DNA from: Pseudomonadota bacterium
GTDB lineage: Bacteria; Desulfobacterota; Desulfarculia; Desulfarculales; Desulfarculaceae
Assembly: GCA_018819925.1 (NCBI GenBank)
Contig: JAHJPG010000094.1
Location: forward strand, 1 to 64,000
Reading direction: 5' to 3'
Length of the DNA stretch: 64,000 bases
A program made the translations under genes and the position numbers. The notes under the pieces were generated by a model, which searched no databases, was not told where the DNA came from, and worked only from the letters and a program-made list of their open reading frames with translations. Positions 55,829 to 58,173 of the stretch are shown one piece after another (the first letter of the stretch is position 1; each line of letters begins with the position of its first letter).

Positions 55829-55857
55829 TTGACAGCACTATGCCAAGTTGATAGACA
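55829..55857 (+). promoter_or_regulatory. Candidate promoter of dsrC
   Basis: A consensus TTGACA (55829-55834), a 17-bp spacer and a weak TAGACA (55852-55857), 84 bp upstream of dsrC. Confidence 0.45.
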
Positions 55858-55940
55858 GTTCATTGTGCTTTTAAGACCCCCCCCGAGGAAGAAATGGCCT
55901 GTCAGGCCGATTCATAAAGTCGTAAAGGAGGAAACCCAAG

Positions 55941-56258
55941 ATGCCGACCGTGAGCTTTAAGGGCAAAGATTTTGAAGTCGACGAGGACGGCTTCCTGCAA
56001 GATCCGGAGACCTGGGCCCCTGACTTCGCTTTCTACGTGAAGGAACAAGAGGGCATCTCCGAGTTGACCGACGAACACTGGAAGGTTATCCACTACCTCC
56101 AGGACTACTACAAGAAAAACGGAATCGCCCCCATGGTCCGGATCATGACCAAGGTCACCGGCTACAAGCTGAAACAGATCTACGAGCTGTTCCCCAGCGG
56201 CCCCGGCAAGGGCGCCTGCAAGATGGCAGGTCTGGCCAAGCCCACCGGCTGCGTTTAG
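55941..56258 (+). CDS. dsrC: DsrC, sulfur carrier of dissimilatory sulfite reduction
   Basis: A 105-residue TusE/DsrC protein. The C-terminal arm GPGKGACKMAGLAKPTGCV holds both redox cysteines, CysB (11 residues before) and the penultimate CysA, so it is a true DsrC rather than a one-cysteine TusE. It forms a trisulfide with DsrAB during sulfite reduction, and this is thought to be reduced by DsrMKJOP (5842-10985). A very strong AAAGGAGGAAA ribosome site fits its usual high expression. It stands apart from dsr operons and is directly followed by the YcaO-TPR gene. Confidence 0.96.
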   Translation: MPTVSFKGKDFEVDEDGFLQDPETWAPDFAFYVKEQEGISELTDEHWKVIHYLQDYYKKNGIAPMVRIMTKVTGYKLKQIYELFPSGPGKGACKMAGLAKPTGCV

Positions 56259-56382
56259 TAGCCAGCGATCCGCGAGACACGGTGCCCCGTCGAGCAATCG
56301 GCGGGCGCCGTCTTTTAGGGCGCGATATATACAATATTTTGGGTATACGCTTTCTGGTGCAGGATGGCGGAGCGTGACAGGC

Positions 56383-58122
56383 ATGAGCGCTACTACATCA
56401 AAGTTGGAACTTAAAGCCGCCCCCAAGGGTTATCAGGGCGAACAGGACAAGGCCCGGGCCCCGGAAGAGACCGTGGCCTGGGTGCGGGAGCGCTTTGTGG
56501 CCATGGGCCAGGACATCTTGCGCAAGGTGATGCGCATCGACACCGGCCGCCTGGAAATTCCGGTTTATATAAGTATTTGCGGGGACGGGGCCAAGGGCGT
56601 CACCGGCACCCAGAAGCAGATGGGCAAGGGGGCCAGCCCCATCCAGGCCGAGGCCAGCGCGCTTATGGAACTGGCGGAGCGCTTTTCCTTTTTCAGCTTC
56701 ATCAAGGGAGGCGGCTTTCCCTGGCTCACCGCGCCGCAAGCAGGCCCCCAGGCCATGGATTTCGCCCAGGCGGCCAAGGCGGTGTACCACCCCGCCGGCG
56801 ACCTGGGGCGGGCCAAGGCGGCGTATGACCTGCTGCCCCAGACCTGGGCCTGGGCCCGCAACCTGGGCCGGGAGCGGGATGAGCGCTTGCCCCTGAGCTG
56901 GTTTTACGCCATCAACGAGTACAACGGGCCTGCGGCGGGCAACTGCCTGGAAGAGGCGGTGCTGCAGAGCCTGTGCGAGGTGGTGGAGCGCCACGTGTCG
57001 GCGGTGGTGACTTTGGAAGAGCGGCCAACCCCGGCCATCGATCCGGGCAGCGTGACCGACCCCATCGCCGCCGAGCTTATCGCCAAGTTCCGGCGGGCGG
57101 GCATCGAGGTGTTCCTCAAGGACTTCACCTGCGGCATGGGCATCCCCTCGGTGGCGGCATTGTGCTACGATCCCAGCACCTTCCCCGCCTCCAGCGAGAT
57201 CGTCTACGCGGCGGGCACCGCCACCAGCCCGGCCATGGCCCTTATCAGGGCGCTGACCGAGGTGGCCCAACTGGCCGGCGAGTTCAACACCCACACCTCC
57301 TACAAAGTAAGCGCCCTGCCCAAGTTCGCCAGCCTGGCCGAGGCCCAGTACGTAACCCGGGCCGACGGCGTGGTGGCGCTGGAGACCCTGCCCGACCTCA
57401 GCGCTCCGGACTTTCGCGACGAGGTGACGGCATGCGTGGGCGCCCTGGAGCGGCGGGGATATTCGACCTATTGCTTTAACGTAACCCACCCCCAGCTGGG
57501 GGTGCCCAGCGTGTACACCGTAGTGCCCGGGGCCCACTTCGCCTATCGCACCACCGGCACGGACGTGGTTTTCCACGCGGCCAAGGCGGCCAGCCAACTG
57601 CCGGACCCGGCGCAATCCTTGGCGATATTAAATCAAATGCTGGATGCAGCTGGCCAAAGTTATTACTTGGAGTTTTTCAGGGCCCTGGCCATGTTGACCC
57701 TGGAGCGGCCGGCAGAGGCCCTTGAGGCCCTGGACGCCGCCTTGACCCTGAATCCCCCGGCCAGCGACGAGGCTTCAATTCACACCCACCGCGGGGCGGC
57801 GCTCAAGGACTTGGGCCGCTACGATGAGGCCAAGGAGTCCCTGCGCCGGGCGGCTTCCTTTGACGAGCCGCACTCCGAAGTATTCAACCTGCTTGGGTTC
57901 TGCCACTACATGCTCAAAGAGCATGAGGAGGCGGTCGAAGCCTTCAGCCGCGCCATCGAGCTGGAGCCGGGCCTGGCCATAAATTATGCCAATATCGGCA
58001 GCAACTTGCGCGAGATGGGCCAGATAAAAGAGGCCTGCCAGATGTACGAGCACGCACTTGAACTAGACCCAGGCCTGGACTTCGCGCGAGACAACCTGGC
58101 AAAGTTAAAGCAAAAGATTTAA
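56383..58122 (+). CDS. YcaO-domain protein fused to C-terminal TPR repeats
   Basis: About 579 residues. Residues 1-400 are a YcaO domain with ATP-binding pieces GKGASPIQAEASALMELAER, LEEAVLQSLCEVVERHVSAV and GTATSPAMALIRALTEVAQL (E-x-x-x-E/E-x-x-Q type). Residues from about 420 form four TPR helices-pairs (for example IHTHRGAALKDLGRYDEAKE and AINYANIGSNLREMGQIKEA). YcaO enzymes activate an amide backbone with ATP, giving azolines, thioamides or amidines. It starts 124 bp after dsrC in the same direction. DsrC or a sulfur-transfer partner is the attractive substrate; this is inference. GTG 56374 is an alternative start. Confidence 0.9.
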   Translation: MSATTSKLELKAAPKGYQGEQDKARAPEETVAWVRERFVAMGQDILRKVMRIDTGRLEIPVYISICGDGAKGVTGTQKQMGKGASPIQAEASALMELAERFSFFSFIKGGGFPWLTAPQAGPQAMDFAQAAKAVYHPAGDLGRAKAAYDLLPQTWAWARNLGRERDERLPLSWFYAINEYNGPAAGNCLEEAVLQSLCEVVERHVSAVVTLEERPTPAIDPGSVTDPIAAELIAKFRRAGIEVFLKDFTCGMGIPSVAALCYDPSTFPASSEIVYAAGTATSPAMALIRALTEVAQLAGEFNTHTSYKVSALPKFASLAEAQYVTRADGVVALETLPDLSAPDFRDEVTACVGALERRGYSTYCFNVTHPQLGVPSVYTVVPGAHFAYRTTGTDVVFHAAKAASQLPDPAQSLAILNQMLDAAGQSYYLEFFRALAMLTLERPAEALEALDAALTLNPPASDEASIHTHRGAALKDLGRYDEAKESLRRAASFDEPHSEVFNLLGFCHYMLKEHEEAVEAFSRAIELEPGLAINYANIGSNLREMGQIKEACQMYEHALELDPGLDFARDNLAKLKQKI

Positions 58123-58143
58123 TTAGCGCTCCGGCGCAGGCAG

Positions 58144-58169
58144 GCCCCGCCCATTGGCGGGGCTTTTTT
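58144..58169 (+). terminator. Terminator after the YcaO-TPR gene
   Basis: A perfect 8-bp GC stem (58144-58151 with 58156-58163), four-base loop and six T residues, 22 bp past the stop. Confidence 0.9.
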
Positions 58170-58173
58170 ATGC

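Follow-up and report, generated by a model that had tools for sequence, protein, structure and literature searches.

A YcaO-TPR protein tied to DsrC in Desulfobacterota is a candidate protein-backbone thioamidase of dissimilatory sulfite reduction

Why would a YcaO enzyme be encoded beside DsrC, the central sulfur carrier of dissimilatory sulfite reduction? The question is raised by a 64,000-nucleotide stretch of a 4.0 Mb Desulfarculaceae assembly (contig JAHJPG010000094.1, labelled C91, positions 1 to 64,000; hereafter, the window), in which dsrC is followed on the same strand by a gene for a YcaO domain fused to tetratricopeptide repeats (TPRs). A preliminary description of the window had named this gene order and four TPRs, and both hold up: the first gene matches PF04358 and TIGR03342, the second, after a gap of 115 bp, matches PF02624, and TPR_1 matches four stretches of its product of 579 to 582 residues. 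The same description suggested either that DsrC gives sulfur to a YcaO reaction or that YcaO modifies DsrC or a protein bound by the TPRs. A functional tie between DsrC and YcaO-TPR is well supported, because the two genes are recurrently adjacent in both orders and YcaO-TPR is nested almost completely within genomes that carry dsrA and dsrC; either of the two suggested roles could apply.

The preliminary description had proposed a genome-context search for conserved adjacency of the two genes. We ran a family profile over 394 Desulfobacterota genomes and fetched 138 loci outside Desulfarculaceae to read their neighbours. Within the order of the window genome, 19 of 21 genomes carry ycaO-TPR, and dsrC lies directly upstream of it in all 18 Desulfarculaceae loci that retain an upstream flank. 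Elsewhere, dsrC lies directly downstream on the same strand in 20 loci from ten families, with a gap of 88-410 bp (1057 bp in one), and most of the remaining loci have no dsrC within 4 kb. In 11 of 43 family labels, the gene immediately next to ycaO-TPR on the same strand is dsrC, more often than any other gene; it precedes ycaO-TPR in Desulfarculaceae and follows it in the other labels, and the adjacency is conserved in both orders. Neighbouring genes were called with a codon-usage caller, which missed dsrC in three families where tblastn found it. In a FastTree phylogeny of YcaO, the upstream state forms one clade, Desulfarculaceae, and at least five changes on well-supported branches are required for the downstream state, which is found in one large clade and in a separate part of family f39. 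The adjacency is present in at least three lineages, and the pairing exceeds chance.

The distribution of the protein points in the same direction. Full-length YcaO-TPR, a count that leaves out two f37 genomes with a divergent, TPR-poor YcaO, occurs in 152 of the 394 genomes. A true dsrA, defined as a TIGR02064 match with E below 1e-80, is present in 150 of these 152 (G289 and G301 have no clear dsrA), and a DsrC-family gene in all of them. Among the 242 genomes without YcaO-TPR, 195 also lack dsrA, and no GTDB family without dsrA has YcaO-TPR. The association (Fisher 5e-63) is descriptive only, as the genomes are not independent by kinship. In a single Desulfarculaceae genome, G018 (92% complete), ycaO, dsrC and dsrA are missing together. 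The nesting of YcaO-TPR within the dsrA/dsrC genomes of Desulfobacterota is near-complete; 14 of the 53 dsrA families are without the protein, f32 and f75 are mixed, and two of the four f37 genomes carry it. In many of the dsrA families without YcaO-TPR, the dsrA matches stop earlier in the model (at about 387-397 of 402), and these earlier ends may mark another Dsr type.

What chemistry would such a protein perform? The window protein is the sole PF02624 match in its genome (223 bits against a gathering score of 25.7, covering profile positions 1-324 of 325), and its ATP-site residues N190, E194, Q198, E202, E205 and R206 are at least 97% identical among 149 homologues. It carries the YcaO motif Sx6-7Ex3Qx3ExxER, with Ala in place of the first Ser, a position that varies among relatives. 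The closest curated family is TIGR03266, the McrA-glycine thioamidating YcaO, at 123.6 bits, far under its cut-off of 365. The window protein also falls below the cut-offs of the SagD-type azoline cyclodehydratases (TIGR03604, 91.6 bits against 219.25) and of the E. coli-type YcaO (NF040716, 42 bits against 700); its isoelectric point (pI) of 5.2 and the family median of 5.25 differ from the pI of about 4.4 that marks the E. coli type. In an AlphaFold2 model (mean predicted local distance difference test score of 90, predicted template modelling score of 0.85), residues 16-396 are nearest to M. jannaschii YcaO (6pe3/6peu; Z 37.4, 341-342 residues aligned), followed by M. kandleri YcaO (Z 34.0), LynD (32.8) and E. 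coli YcaO (29.5).

The archaeal enzymes (among them MJ1094 of M. jannaschii) also resemble YcaO-TPR in the glutamates, Gln and Arg of the ATP motif, and both M. jannaschii and M. kandleri form thioglycine in McrA without TfuA (PMC5589413). We found neither TfuA (PF07812) nor McrA (PF02249) in any of the 21 genomes of the order, whereas the controls, including M. acetivorans for TfuA, were matched. A thioamidase with another protein target is the most economical reading, because the nearest family and structures are archaeal thioamidases that need no TfuA, while McrA and TfuA are both missing here. YcaO-TPR differs from the archaeal enzymes in being bacterial, in its tie to dsrA and in its added C-terminal TPR domain. 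This domain also sets it apart from the azoline cyclodehydratases LynD, TruD and McbD, with which it has the YcaO fold and ATP site in common. Two Desulfarculaceae genomes (G012 and G013) hold extra, unrelated YcaO-domain genes (L039 and L040), possibly of peptide clusters. In f37, loci L287-L290 (genomes G054, G144, G088 and G117) encode a second, divergent YcaO of about 485-510 residues without a full TPR domain; in G054 and G144 this protein, of about 485 residues, is the only YcaO that the profile matched.

The TPR domain is about 170 residues long and is also conserved: A539, N540 and A554 are invariant wherever a homologue has a residue at the position, and D537 and N505 are conserved in 95% and 85%, respectively. 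Its modelled structure resembles the TPRs of O-GlcNAc transferase (Z about 19), and N505 and N540 fall in the first helix of successive repeats. O-GlcNAc transferase holds peptides by asparagines at that position of its repeats, and it is plausible by analogy that the TPR domain binds a peptide.

On the reading that we favour, YcaO-TPR would be an ATP-dependent protein-backbone thioamidase of dissimilatory sulfite reduction in Desulfobacterota. The YcaO domain would phosphorylate a backbone amide oxygen, which a sulfur nucleophile (free sulfide, or sulfide from a local carrier) would then replace, and the TPR superhelix would grip the protein substrate. The likeliest substrate would be DsrC, in the segment SGP-Gly89-Lys-Gly-Ala-Cys93 just ahead of the cysteine arm. 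A thioamide at this site would lie four residues from Cys93 and could tune the arm, which forms the Cys93-Cys104 trisulfide. These parts differ in probability. A function within the sulfite-reduction system is probable, and thioamidation, as judged from the characterized relatives, is a rather likely chemistry; DsrC as the substrate is a tentative proposal, and Gly89 as the modified residue is doubtful. The reading as a whole, with a thioamidase tied to sulfite reduction and DsrC as its likeliest substrate, is quite possible, although the chances lie somewhat against it.

Two sets of data suggest DsrC as a target. In a comparison of DsrC sequences, the columns that discriminate best between YcaO-TPR genomes and other genomes with dsrC are 89, 33 and 95. 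All canonical DsrC proteins checked from YcaO-TPR genomes have Gly at residue 89, and 27 of 32 others have Ala. Alanine at this position is also found in the sampled members of the dsrA families without YcaO-TPR, which include f4, f7, f18, f19, f23, f25, f29, f31, f38, f53, f55, f71 and f72. We then scanned the DNA of the 394 genomes for the pattern GPGKGACK; among those with dsrA, 148 of 150 with YcaO-TPR have it, compared with 3 of 47 without. The two exceptions with YcaO-TPR, G123 and G293, gave only weak matches in the DsrC search. Family f37 is divided along the same line, as G088 and G117 combine YcaO-TPR with the Gly89 pattern (in G088 the DsrC sequence was also read), and G054 and G144, without YcaO-TPR, have Ala89.

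The second set of data is a published mass-spectrometric assignment. In a 2011 study, the D. vulgaris DsrC peptide LKEVYELFPSGPGK was listed with 'Trimethylation+Oxidation' in three pull-downs (Table 1 of PMC3125180). The modified peptide is written LK*EVYELFPSGPGK, ends in Gly89-Lys90 and contains no Met, Cys or Trp (PMC3125180). On this peptide, oxidation (+15.995) and a thioamide (+15.977) are computed to be 11 parts per million (ppm) apart; the published search could not tell them apart, because the tolerance used for protein identification, 100 ppm (PMC3125180), exceeds this gap. Together, Gly89 and the published +16 lean to DsrC as the target. It is rather doubtful that a dedicated YcaO-TPR installs a thioglycine at or near Gly89 of DsrC, as the third protein thioamidation after McrA and uL16, with a trace perhaps already present in the D. 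vulgaris 'oxidation' spectra.

Several observations weigh against this reading. When the DsrC tree was built without columns 89, 33 and 95, Gly89 changed only twice, and the independent contrasts between Gly89 and YcaO-TPR numbered two for, none against and two uninformative; column 33 separates the YcaO-TPR groups as well as column 89 does. Five DsrC-bearing genomes without YcaO-TPR retain Gly89, and GPGKGACK is present in f3 genomes of the same class (G215, G235, G255, G330 and G363) that have neither a true dsrA nor YcaO-TPR. The link between Gly89 and YcaO-TPR thus seems to be largely clade sharing, and we rejected Gly89 as proof that DsrC is the target, given the few independent contrasts and the equal discrimination by column 33. 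The total of +58 on the D. vulgaris peptide also fits carboxymethylation (+58.005), 22 ppm away, by the iodoacetic acid used in that study (PMC3125180). At the level of the genes, dsrC and ycaO are not adjacent in most families (110 of 137 scorable loci), and the two look separately controlled (see below). Finally, a D. vulgaris strain deleted for DVU2210, a YcaO-TPR protein, grows by sulfate respiration at near the wild-type rate (PMC7774982); any modification made by YcaO-TPR is therefore not essential.

DVU2210 was described in 2020 as a YcaO-like TPR protein to which its authors assigned neither function nor target (PMC7774982). The preliminary description knew of no described function for the pair. 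Our literature search, which missed most subscription journals, found no published link between YcaO and DsrC or between DsrC and a thioamide; the family itself is not wholly undescribed. We take DVU2210 as an orthologue of the window protein from its architecture and printed motif: both have the YcaO-TPR architecture, profile A1 (for proteins of about 580 residues) matches over its full length in families including f39, whose motifs resemble the one printed for DVU2210, and the motifs of DVU2210 (SAGNTEEESILQGSCELVER) and of the window protein (AAGNCLEEAVLQSLCEVVER) are similar. Unlike the window gene, DVU2210 is, by locus number, not beside dsrC (DVU2776). Deletion of DVU2210 together with sat confers molybdate resistance, for which a direct activation of molybdate was proposed, and the substitution S195R, in the ATP motif, acts like loss of the gene; deletion and complemented strains exist (PMC7774982). 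In lines of D. vulgaris evolved with a methanogen, dsrC gained missense mutations; both dsrC and DVU2210 rank with the genes of high G-score in this experiment, DVU2210 in the sulfate-reducing sub-community EPD-09 (PMC8319347).

If DsrC is not the substrate, it could be the sulfur donor. DsrC, or elsewhere LarE, a NIL-ferredoxin with MnmA, or TusA/DsrEFH, would then pass sulfide to YcaO-TPR, which would thioamidate another protein of the sulfite-reduction system, such as DsrAB, Apr or DsrMK. The neighbours of ycaO-TPR vary by lineage yet are often sulfur-mobilising, which suits a donor better than a fixed substrate. LarE, a sacrificial sulfur transferase, is encoded immediately upstream in ten loci (f48, f35, f32 and L013; above the curated cut-off in the four loci tested), a NIL-domain 4Fe-4S protein immediately beside ycaO-TPR in twelve loci of f27, f64 and f37, MnmA nearby in ten loci of f27 and f64, and a sulfide-dependent Thi4 in two f37 loci. 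The neighbours in L014 are a radical SAM protein, two YeeE/YedE-like genes, TusA and two small DsrE-like genes, a set resembling the yeeE/yedE-tusA-dsrEFH cluster described in PMC13293266. Judged from gene order, this alternation of partners fits a sulfur-donor role equally well. The usual partner TfuA is missing, no sulfur donor is known for E. coli YcaO (PMC13063428), and a donor would likewise be consistent with the nesting of YcaO-TPR in dsrA genomes. However, a donor role leaves both the Gly89 pattern and the +16 on the DsrC peptide unexplained, free sulfide is plentiful in sulfate reducers, and the M. jannaschii and M. kandleri enzymes act without TfuA (PMC5589413); we regard this alternative as unlikely, while giving it real weight.

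Two further explanations leave DsrC out of the reaction. Protein-backbone thioamides are known in two proteins only, McrA and uL16 (PMC13063428). In 2026, thioamidation of uL16 at Met82 was attributed to E. coli YcaO, an enzyme that works on a folded protein and has about 150 residues of TPR-like structure at its C-terminus (PMC13063428). YcaO-TPR might modify uL16 in the same way, with the vicinity of dsr genes being incidental; several families have EF-G encoded near ycaO-TPR, and in L014 ycaO is preceded by translation genes. This is very improbable, as the E. coli enzyme is distant from YcaO-TPR in profile score and pI, is structurally farther from it than the archaeal enzymes are, and has no dsr-linked distribution in PMC13063428; a ribosomal job would not predict confinement to dsrA genomes. 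The other explanation is a different ATP-dependent job, for example on a peptide like those that are ribosomally synthesized and post-translationally modified or on a small molecule, in which case the vicinity of dsrC would reflect shared ancestry or gene order only. The molybdate phenotype of the DVU2210 and sat deletions, with the direct activation proposed for it (PMC7774982), would fit, as would the promoter-like and terminator-like elements that dsrC has of its own, and the association statistics are not phylogenetically independent. Pure chance is contradicted by the occurrence of the pair in no fewer than three separate lineages and in both gene orders, by the first rank of dsrC among immediate same-strand neighbours when families are counted, and by the joint absence of dsrA, dsrC and ycaO from G018. 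We consider this explanation improbable.

Should the thioamidase reading be correct, YcaO-TPR would create a third protein-backbone thioamide, tied to sulfite reduction, the driving pathway of much of the anaerobic sulfur cycle, and with DsrC as its target the modification would sit on the central carrier of that pathway. This would explain why ycaO-TPR is retained in most dsrA-bearing Desulfobacterota genomes, give a biochemical basis to the unexplained molybdate and co-culture phenotypes of DVU2210, and hint at where YcaO enzymes without TfuA obtain sulfur, a question that is open for E. coli YcaO.

The features of the locus are collected in Table 1. The terminator that the preliminary description had placed after the pair is present, but its statement that no terminator lies between the genes does not stand, as a strong, conserved terminator-like hairpin with a short T-run follows dsrC directly. 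This hairpin recurs in 16 of 16 Desulfarculaceae gaps printed, and its arms co-vary across the family (ACGGTGCCC/GGGCACCGT, GACGGCGCC/GGCGCCGTC and CGGCGTTCG/CGAACGCCG). A strict consensus scan for promoters and terminators reported no promoter at the locus and also missed the dsrC hairpin. In most Desulfarculaceae gaps, a motif near TATACAnnATTTTGGnTAnAnG sits behind the hairpin, about 25-55 nt before the ycaO start, and could be a promoter or operator. In genomes with the reverse order, dsrC has its own TTGACA-17-TATAGT-like promoter boxes in the same place relative to the gene. Co-transcription is doubtful because of the hairpin between the genes here and the promoter-like boxes that dsrC has in the reverse arrangement; dsrC and ycaO are linked by position but are probably not a simple operon; read-through is possible. 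For ycaO-TPR itself, ATG 56383 is a more likely start than GTG 56374, as it lines up with the ATG of the relatives L012, L022 and L002.

Table 1. Positions of the features of the dsrC and ycaO-TPR locus in the window.
Feature	Position	Strand	Basis or remark
Promoter-like TTGACA-N17-TAGACA, 5' of dsrC	55829..55857	+	Read from the sequence
dsrC ribosome-binding site AAAGGAGG	55924..55931	+	Sequence
dsrC; canonical DsrC, 105 residues, two arm cysteines	55941..56258	+	PF04358 E 3.7e-38; TIGR03342 above cut-off
DsrC C-terminal segment Gly89-Val105 (Gly89 as candidate site, Cys93, Met95, Cys104)	56205..56255	+	Column comparison, pattern scan
Terminator-like hairpin, GC-rich, with CTTTT, directly 3' of dsrC	56279..56316	+	Folding, comparison across Desulfarculaceae
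Conserved 24-nt non-coding motif (TATACAnnATTTTGGnTAnAnG), 5' of ycaO	56326..56349	+	Seen in most Desulfarculaceae gaps printed
ycaO-TPR gene	56374..58122	+	GTG 56374 or, likelier, ATG 56383; 115 bp 3' of the dsrC stop
YcaO domain	56620..57534	+	PF02624, residues 83-387, E 7e-66
YcaO ATP-binding motif NxxxExxxQxxxExxER (N190-R206)	56941..56991	+	Conservation in 149 homologues
TPR domain, model helices 412-581	57607..58116	+	Four TPR_1 stretches; model helices
Intrinsic terminator 3' of ycaO-TPR	58142..58171	+	Terminator scan

The DsrC encoded beside ycaO in the window is a canonical two-cysteine member of the DsrC/TusE family. It scores 117 bits against TIGR03342 (cut-off 53.5), has C93 and C104 in the C-terminal KPTGCV arm (...CKMAGLAKPTGCV) and has seven PDB relatives. 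The same genome, G000, encodes a second, divergent DsrC/TusE-like protein that is 35% identical (contig C123:6025-6321, L018). In family f16 (L105, L106 and L110), a DsrC paralogue with an altered arm, TSERAICKIAGLPKPTGCI, is encoded on the strand opposite to ycaO-TPR at a distance of about 2.7 kb, and a canonical DsrC is encoded elsewhere. A small DUF2934-containing protein is encoded immediately upstream of ycaO-TPR in 12 loci, L166 and its relatives, from families f77, f105, f47 and f97.

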